Source: an uncultured Lachnospiraceae bacterium
GTDB taxonomy: Bacteria; Bacillota; Clostridia; Lachnospirales; Lachnospiraceae
Direction: 5' to 3'
DNA: 11,688 nucleotides
NCBI GenBank assembly: GCA_902783305.1
Contig: CACZQU010000211.1
Span: forward strand, 1-11,688
Below the pieces are notes generated by a model, which saw only the letters and a program-made list of their open reading frames with translations, had not been told where the DNA came from and made no database searches. Shown here piece after piece: positions 2,548-11,380 of this stretch. Position numbers and translations under genes: made by a program. The stretch's first letter is position 1. Each line of letters begins with the position of its first letter.

Positions 2548-2579
2548 GAATGGATACTGTTGAAAAGGAGAGGAGTCAA

Positions 2580-4193
2580 GTGGATCTCATTCGCCAAATG
2601 ACAGAAGAATACAAGGACTATCTGTTTGATGAATCCCGCACGATGGGACAGGCAGATTATATCGCTTTTCCCGACAGCGAGGAGGAACTGGTTCAGGTCG
2701 TCCGGTGGTGCGCGAGGCAAGGTGTTCCTCTGACTGCCCAGGGAGGGATGACAGGTCTCGCGGGAGGCGCGAGTCCACTCAAAGGGCTTGCTCTGAACCT
2801 GTCGAGAATGAACCGGATTCTCGGAATGCGCCGTGCGCAGAATGGTTCTGTATATCTCAGGGTACAGCCCGGTGTATTGCTGACCCAGGTCAGGAAAGCC
2901 CTGGCAGAGAAAAACTTTGATGTCTCGCAGTGGGATGAAGAGTCCATCCGCACTCTTCAATCCATTACACCCGGGGAGCTCTTTTTTCCTCCGGATCCTA
3001 CGGAACCGACAGCCAGCCTTGGAGGGATGGCTTCATGCAACGCCTGCGGGGCAAGATCCTTTCTGTATGGCTGCACCCGTGCGCATGTTCACGGACTGAG
3101 GGTGGTGCTGGCAGACGGTAGAGCAGCCGAGGTCTGCCGGGGCAGGGATAAAGCGCAGGGGAGGAGGATTCTGCTTCGGACGCTGGACGGCAGCACGCTT
3201 CAAAGTGAACTTCCTTCCTTTGACACCCCGGATATCAAGGACGCAGGATACTATATCCGGGAGAATATGGACCTGGCCGATCTTTTTATGGGCAGTCAGG
3301 GAACTCTGGCCATCATCAGCGAACTGGAGCTGATTCTCAAAAAGGCACCTGAGCATCTTTGGGGTCTGACAGCTTTTTTTCCCGATGACGACAGTGCGCT
3401 CTCCTATGTACGGGCGGTCAAGGGACATCCGGATCCCGGGGTTCCCCGGCTGAGCAGCCCGGCCGCATCGATCGAATTTTTCGGCAGGAACGCCCTTGAC
3501 ATGGTGATGGATCTGAAAGAAAAAAATCCGGCCTTCCGCCAGCTTCAAAAGCTTCCGGATCATTACCACTGCGGAGTTTATGTGGAATTCAACGCAGATG
3601 ATCCTTCCCGGATGCCCGTTCTTCTTACAGAACTGGAGAAGGTGATCATAGCGGCAGGCGGGGATCCGGAACGCACCTGGGTGGCAAGAGATGCCCAGGA
3701 GCTGGAGCAGCTTCTTTTTTTCCGGCACTCGGTTCCGGAGGCGATTGACCTGATTGTGGAAGAAAACAAAAGAAGAGAGCCTTGCATTACGATTCTGTCG
3801 ACCGATATGGCGGTGGACGATGCACATTTCGAGGAGCTGTTTCGTATCTACAATGAAGATCTGAAGAAGACGGATCTGCATTGGGTAATTTTCGGACATA
3901 TCGGTGAAAATCATGTTCATCCGAATATCCTGGCCAGGACGAAGGAAGAATATGAGAGAGGACACGCGATTTTTGAAAAATGGGCCAAAGACGTCTATCG
4001 GATGGGAGGCAGTATCTCTGCAGAGCATGGTGCGGGTAAAATCAAGAAAAAGCTGGCGATGATCATGTATGGTCCGCAGAAAATGAAGGAACTGGTCCGC
4101 CTGAAAGCTGATTTCGATCCCCAGGGAATTCTGGGGCCGGGAAATGTTCTGACCGACGAGGCGAAAGCCGCAAAGACGGAGGTGGAACAATGA
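2580..4193 (+). CDS. FAD-binding 2-hydroxyacid dehydrogenase (GlcD/D-lactate dehydrogenase family)
   Basis: This flavoenzyme probably oxidises a D-2-hydroxy acid (D-lactate, glycolate or D-2-hydroxyglutarate are the family choices) and passes electrons to the ETF encoded next. GTG 2580 is preferred as start (537 residues). AAGGAG at 2565-2570 is spaced 9 bases from it, whereas the in-frame ATG at 2550 has only a weak site and would translate the ribosome site itself. Numbering from GTG 2580, the N-terminal FAD domain carries QGGMTGLAGGA (54-64), FFPPDP and LGGMASCNACG (135-157) and MGSQGTLAII (237-246). The C-terminal cap domain carries the metal-binding-type HIGENHVH (440-447) and AEHGAGK (481-487). 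HIGENHVH departs from the usual HxGDGNxH, but its three histidines are kept. It is longer than the usual 460-500 residues. The gene overlaps the ETF gene by ATGA, so the two products are likely made together. Substrate is not identified. Confidence 0.85.
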   Translation: MDLIRQMTEEYKDYLFDESRTMGQADYIAFPDSEEELVQVVRWCARQGVPLTAQGGMTGLAGGASPLKGLALNLSRMNRILGMRRAQNGSVYLRVQPGVLLTQVRKALAEKNFDVSQWDEESIRTLQSITPGELFFPPDPTEPTASLGGMASCNACGARSFLYGCTRAHVHGLRVVLADGRAAEVCRGRDKAQGRRILLRTLDGSTLQSELPSFDTPDIKDAGYYIRENMDLADLFMGSQGTLAIISELELILKKAPEHLWGLTAFFPDDDSALSYVRAVKGHPDPGVPRLSSPAASIEFFGRNALDMVMDLKEKNPAFRQLQKLPDHYHCGVYVEFNADDPSRMPVLLTELEKVIIAAGGDPERTWVARDAQELEQLLFFRHSVPEAIDLIVEENKRREPCITILSTDMAVDDAHFEELFRIYNEDLKKTDLHWVIFGHIGENHVHPNILARTKEEYERGHAIFEKWAKDVYRMGGSISAEHGAGKIKKKLAMIMYGPQKMKELVRLKADFDPQGILGPGNVLTDEAKAAKTEVEQ

Positions 4194-6100
4194 AGATCGG
4201 GGTATGCGTCAAACAGGTTCCCGCAACCAGCGAAACCAGGCTGGATCCGGTTACCCATACCATCATCAGGGAGTCCGGCCGCAACATCCTCAATCCTTTT
4301 GACGCTTTCGCCGTGGAGGAGGGGATACGGCTCAAGGAACGCTTCGGAGGTCAGGTCACGGTCCTGAGTATGGGGATTCCTCAGGCGCAGGAGACGCTTC
4401 GCCGGACGATAGCGACAGGGGCGGATGAAGCAGTGCTGCTTACAGACCGGGCATTTGCCGGTTCGGATACTCTTTCGACAGCCTGCACCTTGTCGGAAGG
4501 GATCCGGAAGCTGGGAGGATTTGACCTCATTGTTTGCGGGCACATGGCGACAGATGGAGATACCGCTCAGGTCGGTCCGATGCTGGCAGAATATCTGGGG
4601 ATTCCGCACGTCACAGGCGTGTCTGCGGTCGAGTCGGTCCGGCAGGGAATGATTACGCTCCGAAAGCTGACGGACGATGGCTATCTGAGACTCCAGGTGC
4701 CGATGCCGGCTTTGATCACGGTGCTGAAGGAAATCAATATTCCGCGGCTTCCCTCCCTGGCCGGCGTGCTCCGGGGAGAAAGAGCCCGGATCAGGCAGCT
4801 TGACGCTGCCATGCTGGGCATACCTCCGGAAAAAACAGGCCTGAAGGGATCACCTACCCGTGTGATCGGGACAAGCCGGCCGCAGATCCGGACAGAGCGC
4901 GTCCGGATAGAGGGAAGCCCGGGAGAGCAGGCGGGAAAGGTCGTTTCTTTGCTGAAGGAATGGGGACTGCTCCGAAAGGGAGCCGATGCAGAGAAAACGA
5001 ATGCTGTGCCGGACGGACAGGATATCGGAATACCGGGCAAAGGACTTGTCCTGCCGGACAACCTGATCCCGGAAAAGATGGAGCCTGCCCAGGGCTCGAT
5101 ATGGGTTTATTGTGAACAGGGTCCGGGAGGACTGCGGGAGGTATCCGGCGAACTCCTGGGCAAAGCGAGAGAACTGGCCCTGGAGCTGAAGTGCAGGGTG
5201 AGCGCGGTTGTGCCTGTGTCCTTTCGTTCCTTTGATGCCGGGAAGGCGATATGGCTGGCGGGATGCGGAGCGGATGAGATTCTGCTGATGGAAGAAAACC
5301 CGGAACCGGCAGGGGATGAAAAGGACATAAAAATTCTTGCGGAAGCTCCGGAGGATGAAATGGGGCAGACAGACCGGATCTGCGAGCTGGCAGACCGATA
5401 TCATCCTCAGGTTTTACTGATCGGTGCAACTGCCTATGGCAGGTCTCTCGCTCCCCGTATAGCGGCAAGGCTGCGGACCGGACTTACCGCGGACTGTACG
5501 GGACTGGGGATTGATCCCGGGACAAAGCTTCTGGTACAGACCAGACCCGCTTTTGGAGGCAGCCTGATGGCCCGGATTATCTGTCCGCAGAGAAGACCGC
5601 AGATGTCTACGGTGCGGCCAAAGGTATTCCCGGCAACGTATCAGGAGCCGGCAAAGCTCCCGGCTGTTTTCCGGTTTGCAACGGACAGGAAAAGCAGTCC
5701 GTTTACCATACTTGAGTTTCTGCCCTCCCGGGAAGGAGAAAACATATCGGAAGCGAAGCTGCTGGTATCCGTCGGGCAGGGCGCAGGAGGAGACGAACAG
5801 ATCGCTATGGCAAGGCAGCTGGCCGGACGGCTGGGAGGAGCTCTTTGCGGCAGCCGTCCTATGGTAGACAGCGGGAAGCTTCCCTATGTTCTCCAGGTAG
5901 GACAGACCGGCAAGACCGTTTCGCCCGCTCTTTATCTGTCACTGGGTATTTCAGGCGCTGTACAGCATATGGCGGGAGTGGCGGCACAGAAAATCATAGC
6001 GGTCAATACGGATCCGGACGCGCCGATTTTCCAATATGCCCACTACATTGTGCAGTGTGACAGCGGAGCATTTCTCCGCGGGATGCTGGAGATGATCTGA
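4190..6100 (+). CDS. Fused electron transfer flavoprotein, beta-alpha in one chain
   Basis: A single 636-residue protein carries both ETF subunits. EtfB occupies about residues 1-258 (VKQVPAT at 7-13, DGDTAQVGP at 122-130). A variable linker spans about 259-300. EtfA fills about 302-636, with an N-terminal domain (TGLTADCT 430-437, TRPAFGG 451-457, STVRPKVF 473-480) and a C-terminal FAD domain with R556, GQTGKTV (571-577), GISGAVQH (586-593) and DPDAPIF (608-614). DGDTAQVGP in EtfB is the form seen in bifurcating-type ETFs that bind a second FAD in place of AMP, so NAD-linked electron confurcation like the Acetobacterium LctBCD complex is possible. No ferredoxin domain is present. A GGAGGTGG ribosome site and the ATGA overlap couple it to the dehydrogenase gene. 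The Arg normally seen in the EtfA GGRG motif is Gln530. Confidence 0.92.
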   Translation: MKIGVCVKQVPATSETRLDPVTHTIIRESGRNILNPFDAFAVEEGIRLKERFGGQVTVLSMGIPQAQETLRRTIATGADEAVLLTDRAFAGSDTLSTACTLSEGIRKLGGFDLIVCGHMATDGDTAQVGPMLAEYLGIPHVTGVSAVESVRQGMITLRKLTDDGYLRLQVPMPALITVLKEINIPRLPSLAGVLRGERARIRQLDAAMLGIPPEKTGLKGSPTRVIGTSRPQIRTERVRIEGSPGEQAGKVVSLLKEWGLLRKGADAEKTNAVPDGQDIGIPGKGLVLPDNLIPEKMEPAQGSIWVYCEQGPGGLREVSGELLGKARELALELKCRVSAVVPVSFRSFDAGKAIWLAGCGADEILLMEENPEPAGDEKDIKILAEAPEDEMGQTDRICELADRYHPQVLLIGATAYGRSLAPRIAARLRTGLTADCTGLGIDPGTKLLVQTRPAFGGSLMARIICPQRRPQMSTVRPKVFPATYQEPAKLPAVFRFATDRKSSPFTILEFLPSREGENISEAKLLVSVGQGAGGDEQIAMARQLAGRLGGALCGSRPMVDSGKLPYVLQVGQTGKTVSPALYLSLGISGAVQHMAGVAAQKIIAVNTDPDAPIFQYAHYIVQCDSGAFLRGMLEMI

Positions 6101-7513: not shown

Positions 7514-7648
7514 ATTTTTTGTTTGCGTCTGAATGCCGGTGCTTTTCTGCGACAGGATTCATCGGTGATGTACGCGGATGCCTGACAGACGGAGCCGGAC
7601 AGCTCCGGGAAAACGGCCGTGCAGAAAGGAGACAGGAAAACGGTTGTT

Positions 7649-7780
7649 AGCGCCGGGACCTTAGATGGTTGACGAGGATGGCGGTGATCGAAGGATTCGG
7701 CGGATGCCGCCACGGTTCACCGGTGAGCCGACAGGGAGAAAGCAAAAAGCAGAAACAACACTGTAACAAAGATTCTCCTC
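7649..7780 (+). ncRNA. glmS ribozyme (glucosamine-6-phosphate-activated self-cleaving RNA)
   Basis: The conserved core of the glmS ribozyme is readable directly. The cleavage site is A7649/G7650, followed by AGCGCC (7649-7654). P1 is ACC/GGU (7658-7660/7667-7669) with a small loop, then TGACGAGGATGG (7670-7681). P2 is closed by GGCGG/CCGCC (7680-7684/7707-7711), a compensated change from the GGAGG/CCTCC of Bacillus. The inner part has ATCGAA and TTCGGCGGATG (7696-7706). P3 is the hairpin 7713-7730. P3.1 is GGAGAA/TTCTCC (7735-7740/7773-7778), enclosing a P4-like CAG/CTG stem and AACAAAG. The core therefore looks intact and active. In known cases the RNA uses glucosamine 6-phosphate as cofactor, cuts its own 5' leader and lowers expression of glmS. 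Here the next genes are nagB and glmM, 306 bp downstream. Identification is from recalled family sequence, not a covariance search. Confidence 0.93.
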
Positions 7781-8085
7781 CCACCGGACATACGAGAGAA
7801 ATACTCTTGAGGAAGGTTTTGTGTTCACGTCAGTCTGTTCTTCGACATGTGCGGCGTTTCAGCCAGACGGTGAGCTGCAGCTGAAGGAATCAGACGGACG
7901 TGCCGCATCAGGATCTTCAGAGATGACATAAAACGGGACGTTTCGGTTTTCCGGCCTGGAAGGTGCCGGAGATCAGGACAGGAAACGGCCCCGGAAAAGC
8001 ATTTGTTTTCCGGATCTGAACAGGGAAAACAAATGAGGATTTACCGTTTATCCGAGATTGAAAAAAAGAAACAGGAGAGAATATT
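7781..8085 (+). other. Structured leader between ribozyme and nagB, no gene
   Basis: No credible gene is seen in these 305 bases. They hold several potential hairpins: TGCGGC/GCCGCA (7850-7855/7902-7907), the palindrome AGCTGCAGCT (7873-7882), AAACG/CGTTT (7931-7935/7939-7943), CCGGC/GCCGG (7951-7955/7965-7969) and CCGGAAAA/TTTTCCGG (7991-7998/8006-8013). The octamer TTTTCCGG also occurs at 7947-7954, so CCGGAAAA has two alternative partners. CAGACGG is repeated directly at 7864-7870 and 7891-7897. An ATG TGC GGC GTT start (MCGV) at 7847 recalls the first codons of glmS but stops after eight codons. The nagB ribosome site AGGAG is at 8073-8077. Confidence 0.5.
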
Positions 8086-8877
8086 ATGCGAGTTGTTATT
8101 CAGGATAATTATGAGAAAATGTGCCAGTGGGCTGCAGCTTATATTGCGGAAAAGATCAACAACCACAAAGAGGACCGTCCTTTTGTACTGGGTCTTCCCA
8201 CCGGTTCTTCACCGATCGGCGTATACAAGGAGCTGATCAGGAAAAATCAGGCCGGAGAGCTGTCCTTTGCCAATGTGGTGACCTTCAATATGGATGAGTA
8301 CCTCGGGCTGCCCAGAGAGCATGATCAGAGCTACTGGTATTTCATGCATGATACCTTCTTTGATCATCTGAAGGATATGAAGCCCGAGAATATCAATATT
8401 CTCAACGGGATGACGGATGATCCCGAGGGAGAATGTGCCCGCTATGAAGAGAAAATCGCGTCCTACGGCGGTATCGATCTCTTTATGGGCGGCATCGGTG
8501 TTGACGGACATCTGGCTTTCAATGAGCCGTATACCTCTCTTTCTTCACGCACGGGCGTGAGAGACCTGACCACCGATACCCGGATCGTGAATTCACGATT
8601 CTTTGGCAATGACCCGTCCAAGGTTCCGGCAAAAGCGCTTTCTGTCGGTATAGGAACGGTGACGGATTCCAGGGAAGTTCTTGTTCTGATTAACGGCCAT
8701 AACAAAGCCAGGGCTCTTGCCGCGACAGTCGAGGGTGGTGTCAGCCAGAAATGGACCTGTTCTGCGCTTCAGATGCACAATGCGGCGATTATCGCCTGTG
8801 ATGAGGAAGCCTGCGGCGAACTGACAGTGGATACATATAAGTATTTCCTTGACATTGAGAGGAAGGAGCGTCTTTAA
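8086..8877 (+). CDS. nagB: Glucosamine-6-phosphate deaminase/isomerase
   Basis: NagB interconverts glucosamine 6-phosphate plus water with fructose 6-phosphate plus ammonia in the cytoplasm. It is usually catabolic but reversible. The 263-residue protein matches the NagB family over its whole length: LGLPTGSSP (35-43), VTFNMDEY with D70 and E71 (65-72), GVDGHLAFNEP with D140, H142 and E147 (138-148), SRTGVRDLT (154-162), NSRFF (169-173), K207 and CSALQMH (225-231). The position equivalent to the E. coli allosteric residue R158 is Gly157 by hand alignment, so GlcNAc-6-phosphate activation is probably absent. The ribosome site AGGAG is 8 bases from the ATG. The gene lies 306 bp after a glmS ribozyme and overlaps glmM by one base (TAATG), a context that points toward amino sugar synthesis rather than simple breakdown. 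Confidence 0.95.
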   Translation: MRVVIQDNYEKMCQWAAAYIAEKINNHKEDRPFVLGLPTGSSPIGVYKELIRKNQAGELSFANVVTFNMDEYLGLPREHDQSYWYFMHDTFFDHLKDMKPENINILNGMTDDPEGECARYEEKIASYGGIDLFMGGIGVDGHLAFNEPYTSLSSRTGVRDLTTDTRIVNSRFFGNDPSKVPAKALSVGIGTVTDSREVLVLINGHNKARALAATVEGGVSQKWTCSALQMHNAAIIACDEEACGELTVDTYKYFLDIERKERL

Positions 8878-10226
8878 TGGGTAAATATTTCGGTACGGAT
8901 GGATTCCGTGGTGAGGCGAATAAAGGACTGACCTTTGTTCATGCCGTGCAGATCGGACGGTTTCTCGGATGGTACTATGGCACAAGGCTGAACAGGAAGG
9001 CCAAGATTGTCATCGGAAAGGACACCAGAAGATCCAGTTACATGTTTGAGTACTCTCTGTGCGCCGGCCTTATGGCGAGCGGTGCGGATGCCTATATCAT
9101 GCATGTGACGACGACCCCTTCAGTGGCGTATATCACCAGAGTCGACGATTTTGACTGCGGAATCATGATCTCCGCATCTCACAATCCTTACCAGGATAAC
9201 GGGATCAAGCTGCTCAACGGTTATGGCGAGAAGATGGACGAGGAGACGATTCTCAAGGTCGAGGAGTACATTGACGGAAAGATCGAGGTTCCCACGGCTT
9301 GCGGACATGAGATCGGGCGGACCGTAGACTACGTCGCCGGGCGGAACCGCTATATCGGGTATCTGATTTCCATGTCCAAATACAGCTTCAAGGATGTTAA
9401 AGTCGGACTGGATGTCGCCAACGGAGCTGCATGGCAGATCGCAAAGGGAGTGTTTGATGCCCTGGGCGCAAAGACGTATGTCATGAATGCCGAGCCGGAT
9501 GGATATAATATCAATACCGAATGCGGCAGCACTCATATTGAGCACCTGCAGAAATTTGTGGTAGAGAAAAACCTGGATATCGGCTTTGCCTATGACGGTG
9601 ACGCGGACAGATGCCTTTGTGTGGACGAAAAGGGAAATGTGGTCACCGGAGATCATATCATGTACATTTACAGCCTGTACATGAAGGAAAGAGGAAAGCT
9701 GATCAACAACAAGGTCGTCACGACGGTGATGAGCAATTTCGGTCTGTATAAGGCGCTGGATAAGGTCGGGATCGAGTACGAAAAAACGAAGGTCGGAGAC
9801 AAATACGTCTATGAAAATATGGTACAGAACGGACATCGGATCGGCGGTGAGCAGTCCGGCCATATTATTTTTACAAAGTATGCGACGACCGGAGACGGGA
9901 TCCTCACCAGCCTGAAGATGATGGAGGTTATGCTGGCCAAGGAAAAACCGATGAGTGAGCTGGCGGCACCGGTGGTATTCTATCCCCAGGTGCTGAAAAA
10001 TGTCAGGGTGAAGAGCAAGCCCGAAGCCCAGAATGATCCGGATGTCATTGCCGCAGTGGAGAAGGTGGCCCGGGAGCTGGGAGATGAGGGACGGATTTTA
10101 GTCCGCGAATCCGGGACAGAGCCGGTGATCCGGGTTATGGTTGAAGCCGGAAACGACGAAATCTGCGGGAAATACGTGGATGATGTCATTAAAGTGATTG
10201 AAGCGAAGGGACATGTCGTGCAGTAA
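8877..10226 (+). CDS. glmM: Phosphoglucosamine mutase
   Basis: GlmM converts glucosamine 6-phosphate to glucosamine 1-phosphate, the step before UDP-GlcNAc, peptidoglycan precursors and other envelope sugars. The 449-residue protein has the full alpha-D-phosphohexomutase set: FGTDGFRG (5-12), the phosphoserine loop ISASHNP with S101 (98-104), the metal loop DGDADR (240-245), the sugar-specificity loop GGEQSGH (323-329) and the phosphate-binding loop RESGTEPVIRVM (410-421). GEQSG in the sugar loop is the usual GlmM form and separates it from phosphoglucomutase/phosphomannomutase relatives. AAGGAG lies 8 bases before the ATG, inside the end of nagB, and the TAATG junction implies coupled translation. 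It therefore shares any control that the upstream ribozyme exerts. Confidence 0.93.
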   Translation: MGKYFGTDGFRGEANKGLTFVHAVQIGRFLGWYYGTRLNRKAKIVIGKDTRRSSYMFEYSLCAGLMASGADAYIMHVTTTPSVAYITRVDDFDCGIMISASHNPYQDNGIKLLNGYGEKMDEETILKVEEYIDGKIEVPTACGHEIGRTVDYVAGRNRYIGYLISMSKYSFKDVKVGLDVANGAAWQIAKGVFDALGAKTYVMNAEPDGYNINTECGSTHIEHLQKFVVEKNLDIGFAYDGDADRCLCVDEKGNVVTGDHIMYIYSLYMKERGKLINNKVVTTVMSNFGLYKALDKVGIEYEKTKVGDKYVYENMVQNGHRIGGEQSGHIIFTKYATTGDGILTSLKMMEVMLAKEKPMSELAAPVVFYPQVLKNVRVKSKPEAQNDPDVIAAVEKVARELGDEGRILVRESGTEPVIRVMVEAGNDEICGKYVDDVIKVIEAKGHVVQ

Positions 10227-10248: not shown

Positions 10249-10287
10249 CACAGGGACTGTGGTTTTCCACAGTCCCTGTGCTTTATA
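10249..10287 (+). terminator. Strong hairpin terminator after glmM
   Basis: CACAGGGACTGTGG (10249-10262) pairs perfectly with CCACAGTCCCTGTG (10267-10280) over a TTTT loop, a 14-bp stem, followed by CTTTATAT. The stem is strong but the T-run is short and mixed, so partial termination is likely. It stands 22 bases after the glmM stop and 41 bases before the kinase start, where no promoter is evident, so the kinase may depend on read-through. Confidence 0.75.
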
Positions 10288-10321
10288 TGCCGGACAGTAC
10301 ACAGAAAGGAAGAAACAGGAG

Positions 10322-11380
10322 ATGGGATGGGATGAAGCTTTTGAAGCAGCAGGACATTTTGCATTCGAGGGAAAGGTATCCGGCTGCGCTCCTTATGGAA
10401 ACGGACACATCAATGAGACCTGGCTGGCAGAGCTTACCGGAGGAGAAAAGGTAATTCTCCAGAAAATCAGCTCTCTGCTGACGAAGGATGTCGATGGACT
10501 TATGGATAATATTTCCGGTGTGACGGCTCATCTTTGCCGGAAGGAGCCGGATCCGAGGAAGGTTTTGCGGCTGATCGGGACAAAGGAGGGAAAGGCCTGC
10601 TGGCACAGTCCGTCCGGAGCATGGAGAGCCTTTGCCTATATCGAGGATTCCATCTGCCTGGAAAAAGCCGGGTGTGATGAAGACCTCCGCCAGAGTGCTC
10701 TGGCATTTGGAGGATTCACGGAAATGCTCAGGGATTTCCCGGCACATATGCTCCGGGATGTGATTCCGGATTTCCACAACACTCCTGTGCGGATGCGGCA
10801 GCTTCACCTTGCGGCAAAGGAAGACCGGGCAGGAAGAAAAAAGGAGGTCGGACAGGAGCTTCATTTCCTGCTGGAAAGGGAGACGGAAATGGGACGGCTC
10901 TGGCAGATGAAGGAGAAAGGTGACCTTCCTGTCCGCGTGACGCATAATGATACCAAGCTGAATAATGTCCTGTTTGACAGAGCTTCCCGTACAGCTCTGT
11001 GTGTCATTGATCTTGACACGGTAATGCCGGGACTGATTCCGTATGATTTTGGAGACGCGGTCCGGTATGGAGCCGCGACTTCGGCTGAGGATGAAAGGGA
11101 TGCCGACAGGATGAAGCTGGATCTTCACCGGTATCAGGTATACCTGGAGGGATTCCTTGAGGCTTGCCCCGGGCTGACCACGCAGGAGGTTGAGGCACTG
11201 CCCCTGGGAGCAAAGACGATCACCCTTGAGCAGGCGGCCCGGTTTCTCACCGACTACCTGAACGGTGATATGTATTACCGGATCAGCCGCCCCGGCCAGA
11301 ACCTGGACCGCTGCCGGACACAGATCCGTCTGGCAGAGGACATGGAAAAGAAATGGAAGGAAATGGGAAGAGGATATTGA
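10322..11380 (+). CDS. Phosphotransferase, N-acetylhexosamine 1-kinase-like
   Basis: This 352-residue protein belongs to the aminoglycoside phosphotransferase/choline kinase fold. Numbered from ATG 10322, the catalytic loop is VTHNDTKLNN (206-215, D210 the base, N215 for metal), followed by IDLDTVMPG with metal-binding D230 (229-237), DFGD (242-245) and a C-terminal RPGQNLDRCRTQ (323-334). HNDTKLNN plus IDLDTVMPG and the final RPGxNLDRxRTQ are shared with bifidobacterial NahK, which phosphorylates GlcNAc or GalNAc at C1. Length also agrees (NahK is about 360 residues). Placement after nagB and glmM supports an amino sugar role: GlcNAc 1-phosphate would enter UDP-GlcNAc synthesis past GlmM. 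ATG 10322 has AAAGGAAG 9 bases upstream; a GTG at 10259 lies inside the terminator stem and is rejected. Another sugar or small-molecule kinase role remains possible. Confidence 0.75.
   Translation: MGWDEAFEAAGHFAFEGKVSGCAPYGNGHINETWLAELTGGEKVILQKISSLLTKDVDGLMDNISGVTAHLCRKEPDPRKVLRLIGTKEGKACWHSPSGAWRAFAYIEDSICLEKAGCDEDLRQSALAFGGFTEMLRDFPAHMLRDVIPDFHNTPVRMRQLHLAAKEDRAGRKKEVGQELHFLLERETEMGRLWQMKEKGDLPVRVTHNDTKLNNVLFDRASRTALCVIDLDTVMPGLIPYDFGDAVRYGAATSAEDERDADRMKLDLHRYQVYLEGFLEACPGLTTQEVEALPLGAKTITLEQAARFLTDYLNGDMYYRISRPGQNLDRCRTQIRLAEDMEKKWKEMGRGY

Follow-up and report, generated by a model that had tools for sequence, protein, structure and literature searches.

The stretch of DNA considered here, referred to as the window, is a contig of 11,688 nucleotides (CACZQU010000211.1, assembly GCA_902783305.1) from an uncultured Lachnospiraceae bacterium. 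It carries a ribozyme of the glmS class at positions 7638–7789, followed by nagB (glucosamine-6-phosphate deaminase, 8086–8877) and glmM (phosphoglucosamine mutase, 8877–10226); these features lie on the plus strand, as do the hairpin P0, the kinase gene and the flavoprotein frame described below. In textbooks the glmS ribozyme stands for a riboswitch with a single target gene, and a 2011 survey by McCown reportedly placed all but two of 463 such ribozymes in glmS mRNAs. The ribozyme in the window is not directly upstream of glmS. No report linking a glmS ribozyme or riboswitch to nagB, glmM, a deaminase or variants was found among the titles, opening lines of abstracts and passages of the open literature that were searched, the latter including passages of PMC7125110, PMC11477304, PMC11602151, PMC7967978 and PMC2258182.

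An original prediction made from the letters of the window had recognised the core of a glmS ribozyme, and a covariance search bears this out. Family RF00234 matches 7638–7789 over its full model (1–167) at 69.1 bits (E 1.5e-14), where the gathering score is 37. Among 4227 Rfam families it is the sole match in the window at E<=1, and it is also the single RF00234 match at E<=10 in the window's assembly, which comprises 614 contigs and 2.99 Mb at 82% completeness and 5.97% contamination. The core segments AGCGCC, GACGAGG, ATCGA and TCGGCGGAT, which make up the double-pseudoknot core and the cleavage site, are all in the window, and the cut is predicted between A7649 and G7650. The P2 region (7680–7711) consists of the helix GGCGG/CCGCC (7680–7684 with 7707–7711), the P2 loop and the conserved TCGGCGGAT. 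The compensated pairing that had been proposed for this helix is present, and an internal pair, at columns 46/72, covaries among 28 sequences of relatives (A-U in 19, G-C in 9). Compensatory changes likewise support the P4 helix with its internal loop and short P4a hairpin (7734–7779). Position 7649, given previously as the start, matches the cleavage site, but the element as a whole begins earlier, at about 7610, with a hairpin here named P0. The RNA presumably cleaves itself, and its unchanged catalytic core points to glucosamine-6-phosphate (GlcN6P) as ligand and trigger.

Both downstream genes are what they had been taken for. The 263-residue NagB scores 376.5 bits against TIGR00502 (cut-off 236.9), and the 449-residue GlmM scores 534.7 bits against TIGR01455 (cut-off 447.55) and is the sole GlmM over cut-off in the assembly. 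NagB resembles the long-type enzyme of solved structure (PDB 1cd5, which we take to be E. coli NagB) in its full-length TIGR00502 match, and scores about 310–333 bits to long-type PDB chains. At the junction, TAATG, stop and start codon do overlap by one shared A, as had been noted; the genes are nonetheless separate and not fused. The leader between ribozyme and nagB (7790–8085) is long, 296 nt compared with 92 nt in a relative of the same genus (G002). It is also structured: the interval 7784–8100 has a z of −3.8 relative to 100 shuffles and contains a perfect 12-bp inverted repeat (8000–8011/8024–8035). No terminator-like site was found on the plus strand between the ribozyme and nagB.

This arrangement recurs in related bacteria. 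In a survey of 64 genomes of the same genus under strict filters, RF00234 was detected at E<=0.01 in six, five of them over cut-off, and the remaining 58 gave no match. The order ribozyme–nagB–glmM occurs in the window's genome and two others (G002, G076), while in G054 the ribozyme and nagB lie close to a contig end. In G057, the ribozyme precedes a gene termed LbH, followed by glmM; in G053, one ribozyme precedes nagB and a second, some 8 kb away, precedes LbH–glmM. LbH encodes a left-handed beta-helix protein of 220 amino acids resembling the acetyltransferase part of GlmU; it matches TIGR03992 with 140 bits over residues 20–198, which is under that family's whole-protein cut-off. It is probably the acetyltransferase half of a split GlmU, since the bifunctional GlmU (TIGR01173) is over cut-off in only two of 46 genomes, among which other kinds of GlmU were not searched for. 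Exactly one glmM is over cut-off in each of eight genomes tested, and in five of the six ribozyme-bearing genomes this single glmM lies on the ribozyme's contig and within its cluster, that of G054 being on another contig.

A search of GTDB species genomes with nagB matched at least 586 places, of which the best 80 loci were analysed. Most are labelled Clostridia (Lachnospiraceae, Oscillospiraceae, Clostridiales), many of them from the ruminant gut, and a few are labelled Erysipelotrichaceae or Spirochaetales; two are from isolates, Ruminococcaceae YRB3002 and P7. Twenty-eight ribozymes with nagB, LbH or glmM as context went into a covariance model, R1; the window's own sequence, one of them, scores 143.5 bits. 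R1 finds a ribozyme in 53 of the 80 loci, with 90 to 150 bits, always upstream and on the nagB strand; 24 of these had served to build R1, which guarantees their match, and 29 had not. The first gene after the ribozyme, for which a survey of relatives had been suggested, is nagB in 42 of the 53 and LbH in 11, and glmM follows in view in 43. Some loci combine these genes with glmS: the row in L150 is ribozyme–LbH–nagB–glmM–glmS, glmS lies ahead of the ribozyme in L099, and it lies downstream in L098. On a tree of 84 NagB rows, the ribozyme label requires at least 14 changes, compared with 21.8 for shuffled labels, and four when only well-supported branches are counted. The ribozyme is thus clustered on the tree, yet has probably been gained or lost more than once. 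A ribozyme linked to nagB, LbH and glmM is therefore common in one group of Clostridia. The placement before nagB–glmM, which the original prediction had put forward as a new or rare regulatory target, is real and conserved, but with 53 of 80 related nagB loci it is not rare.

The same prediction held that the ribozyme stands here instead of at glmS, and this is so wherever the sequence upstream of glmS is visible. The one full glmS of the window's assembly is preceded on its contig by only 150 nt, which hold no RF00234 match. In G002, G053 and G057, 1497 nt upstream of each glmS contain no RF00234 match at E<=1. More broadly, 30 glmS loci of ribozyme-bearing genomes, 29 of them with at least 461 nt upstream, were scanned with R1, which gave 50–57 bits to glmS-linked ribozymes in that same scan; the only match in the 30 was a neighbouring nagB's own ribozyme. 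Ribozyme-bearing genomes thus mostly keep glmS elsewhere, without this ribozyme just upstream. A role for NagB as the substitute for a missing glmS is not general: the window's assembly has a glmS, and 31 of 40 genomes with a ribozyme locus have one over cut-off. The nine others are assemblies of unestablished completeness, and two of them (G106, G113) carry pieces of glmS. Separately, three nearly complete genomes of the same order (G030, G031, G033) have nagB and no full glmS over cut-off, and are candidates for another source of GlcN6P.

An order-wide survey places these ribozymes relative to their glmS-linked counterparts. R1 (E<=0.001) matches 80 of 392 genomes, with a bimodal score distribution: ten genomes at 98–147 bits and 70 at 74 bits or below. 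Eight of the ten high scorers, the window included, precede nagB or LbH (among them L212/L239, with a nagB match of only 111 codons), and the other two, L210 and L211 of a single genus (g59), directly precede glmS. Among the lower scorers, all 20 loci fetched precede glmS, as do two (G025, G040) of the 50 others. When 67 ribozymes of the high-scoring kind were compared column by column with 22 glmS-linked ones, the commonest residues were the same throughout the catalytic core, and no position qualified as a fixed difference under the criterion of the script used. The residues at the cut site are kept in nearly all rows (A7649 in 64 and G7650 in 65 of 67), and the few deviations are put down to rows with a long P1 that the model misplaced. 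The periphery is different. P1 is short, the P4a hairpin and its loop are unlike those of glmS-linked ribozymes, and the loop is larger, conserved and A-rich, with no GNRA tetraloop. Compensatory changes back the helices at 16 of 32 predicted pairs. As judged from their sequences, the nagB-operon ribozymes are a subtype with a canonical catalytic core and a different periphery. Two observations concern individual members. In L068, L156, L161 and L239, 86–113 nt separate AGCGCC from GACGAGG, compared with 16 in the window, a long P1 insert which depresses model scores and obscures the cut site. In L239 (7700–8032, genome G155), the nagB behind the ribozyme matches over its first 111 codons only, although the contig continues, and is a shortened gene.

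Three elements go beyond the original prediction: the LbH gene, the P0 hairpin, and a regulatory paradox that is taken up below. P0 (7610–7649) is a hairpin immediately before the cut, seen in the single-sequence fold of the window and in covariation among relatives. Its stem pairs 7612–7620 with 7640–7648, its loop holds AGGAG (7627–7631), and the predicted cut directly follows A7649. Across the subtype, the pre-cut strand has a conserved layout: TAAAA, the first arm of the stem, GGAGG or AGGAG, the second arm, and an A followed by the cut. A first test, based on the best ungapped pairing, separated P0 weakly from swapped controls (7.1 pairs compared with 6.4, the highest control mean being 6.6). 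A covariation test on 61 aligned sequences, ten proposed pairs and 500 shuffles separated it on three measures, although support in alignment columns 5–7 comes partly from the trimming of sequences. Paired cells make up 82.6% compared with 67.8% in shuffles, cells changed on both sides number 124 compared with 46, and the covariation score is 0.515 compared with 0.257, none of which was reached by any of the 500 shuffles. Sliding the partner by one to three columns lowers the paired cells from 83% to 31–48%. Folding predicts a helix that closes at the cut for 57 of 63 subtype leaders but for only 6 of 22 glmS-linked ones; in the 40 nt preceding the cut, 59 of 63 and 4 of 22, respectively, have GGAGG or AGGAG. 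The g59 glmS leader, one distinct sequence, folds a P0-like helix too, with GAGGA in place of the motif. Pairing of the pre-cut strand with the P1 loop instead was considered and rejected: six or more Watson–Crick pairs were possible in 4 of 61 sequences, compared with 1.5 expected and up to five in controls.

The motif in P0 is rarely placed to start translation, as a start codon lies 3–13 nt after it in only 10 of the 59 cases. P0 therefore has the sequence make-up of a 5' mRNA stabiliser, namely a Shine–Dalgarno-like motif without a start codon together with a stem-loop. In Bacilli, such stabilisers include STAB-SD of cryIIIA and the aprE leader, which combines a 5' stem-loop with ribosome binding, according to a passage of PMC3997798. 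P0 shares with them the strong Shine–Dalgarno-like motif, mostly without a start codon, in a stem-loop that may lie at the 5' end; what sets this putative stabiliser apart is the ribozyme directly attached to it, whose cut would remove it. By analogy, P0 may stabilise its mRNA. A promoter score of at least 9 of 12 before P0, which would place the hairpin at the 5' end of the transcript, was obtained in 25 of 61 loci, compared with 9% of shuffles, and not in the window.

Taken together, these features make it reasonably probable that the ribozyme and P0 form a leader switch of an operon for UDP-N-acetylglucosamine (UDP-GlcNAc) precursors, in which cleavage driven by GlcN6P removes the protective hairpin and the mRNA decays. 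Plentiful GlcN6P would act as cofactor, the RNA would cut itself at A7649/G7650, and the cut would detach the 5' hairpin with its ribosome-binding GGAGG. The remaining mRNA would have a 5'-OH end and no protector; RNase J would degrade it, and expression of nagB and glmM would drop. TIGR00649, presumably the RNase J family, has a match above its cut-off in 43 of 46 genomes, including that of the window. GlcN6P as the signal agrees with the subtype's position directly before glmS in L210 and L211 and at the head of the cluster containing glmS in L150. The switch so described would resemble the glmS ribozyme of the Bacillus subtilis glmS mRNA in catalytic core, cut site and P2 and P4 architecture and, as presumed, in its GlcN6P cofactor and in mRNA decay after cutting. 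It differs in preceding nagB–glmM (in relatives also LbH) rather than glmS, and in its short P1, its non-GNRA P4a loop and the conserved P0 with GGAGG upstream. A passage of PMC11602151 describes the GNRA tetraloop on P4 of the canonical ribozyme as docking into P1, a peripheral contact.

P0 could serve another purpose: a protein such as CsrA might bind it, or it might aid ribozyme folding or the placement of the cleavage site. The CsrA motif is a GGA in a hairpin loop, and P0 has a GGA-containing loop adjoining the cut. As a folding aid, P0 would be dispensable for cleavage in general, being absent from most glmS-linked ribozymes (on the counts given above for helix and motif). We regard this alternative as unlikely. 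Improbable, too, is control in the ON direction, in which cleavage raises expression, through a more stable 5'-OH end or the removal of an inhibitory leader, and GlcN6P induces the enzymes that consume it. That reading fits metabolic logic, as NagB and GlmM use up GlcN6P, and it accords with glmS mostly lacking the ribozyme just upstream in these genomes. However, P0 resembles a stabiliser that cutting would remove, a gene for RNase J is present, and the subtype directly precedes glmS in g59 and heads the glmS-containing operon of L150, where OFF control is expected. The idea that the subtype senses a different amino-sugar phosphate suited to its new genes, such as glucosamine-1-phosphate, draws on the gene context and changed periphery; it was rejected as highly improbable, given that no fixed difference emerged under the script's criterion and that the subtype is also found before glmS. 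It is barely credible that the inverted repeat of P0, although it sits in the promoter-leader region, is the DNA operator of a transcription factor, as its arms vary between species yet covary, G-U pairs occur often (two of the pairs have 13 UG cells each, for example), and the foot of the stem keeps a constant distance of one base to the ribozyme cut.

Several points weigh against the leader switch with OFF control. Nine P0 pairs show change on both sides, a number that 53 of the 500 shuffles also reach; RNAalifold recovers nearly the same helix, but its consensus energy, −1.65 kcal/mol, is weak; and no sigma-70-like promoter scored before P0 in the window. Such a ribozyme is absent from 23 untruncated loci among the 80 with nagB, and four more have less than 300 nt upstream. 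The direction of control is also odd, as NagB and GlmM consume GlcN6P and plain repression would raise it further. The catabolic partner gene nagA is over cut-off in 18 of 46 genomes, where NagB may serve catabolism. With glmS over cut-off in most ribozyme-locus genomes, NagB would rarely be the sole source of GlcN6P, and a passage of PMC5902328 states that the NagB of Akkermansia hardly aminates under physiological conditions.

Why GlcN6P should repress its consumers is the least certain part of the mechanism. OFF control, the likelier direction, would be easiest to understand if NagB served to make GlcN6P, or if the control balanced flux. On the reading preferred here, at low GlcN6P the cell would need more GlmM to hold flux, and NagB, in an ammonia-rich gut, would run toward GlcN6P. 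An anabolic setting is favoured because nagB clusters with glmM and the split GlmU acetyltransferase gene, because nagA is over cut-off in only those 18 of 46 genomes, many of which may be incomplete assemblies, and because all 88 NagB rows have Gly (SRTG in 88 of 88) where the three displayed PDB NagB chains have Arg. We take this Arg to be the allosteric Arg158 of E. coli NagB. A broader proposal, tentative and rather doubtful as a whole, is that the subtype in a clade of gut Clostridia uses a detachable 5' protector with a start-less Shine–Dalgarno motif, cut off at high GlcN6P, to govern the larger part of the pathway to UDP-GlcNAc precursors (GlmM and the acetyltransferase of the split GlmU), and that its presence points to NagB being a GlcN6P synthase of ammonia-rich habitats, fed by ammonia and without allosteric control.

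The window holds further genes. After glmM, a gene at 10259–11380 encodes a homologue of NahK (N-acetylhexosamine 1-kinase; 257.6 bits to 4ocu), and a terminator-like hairpin at about 10250–10279, spotted by eye, precedes it. A link between this kinase gene and the operon was rejected, as no homologue at E<=1e-10 was found in the loci of 85 relatives, many of which end soon past glmM. Further upstream, a frame of 636 amino acids (4190–6100) matches electron transfer flavoprotein beta in its N-terminal part and alpha in its last part, which makes it a fused electron transfer flavoprotein; it adjoins a GlcD-like dehydrogenase (2550–4193).

A ribozyme regarded as the control element of a single gene thus occurs widely, as a subtype, on further genes of the pathway to which glmS belongs, genes that put GlcN6P to use in making cell wall. 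The conserved hairpin before the cut offers a concrete and testable route from cutting to the destabilisation of mRNA, and the finding raises the testable question of whether NagB in gut bacteria runs toward GlcN6P or away from it.

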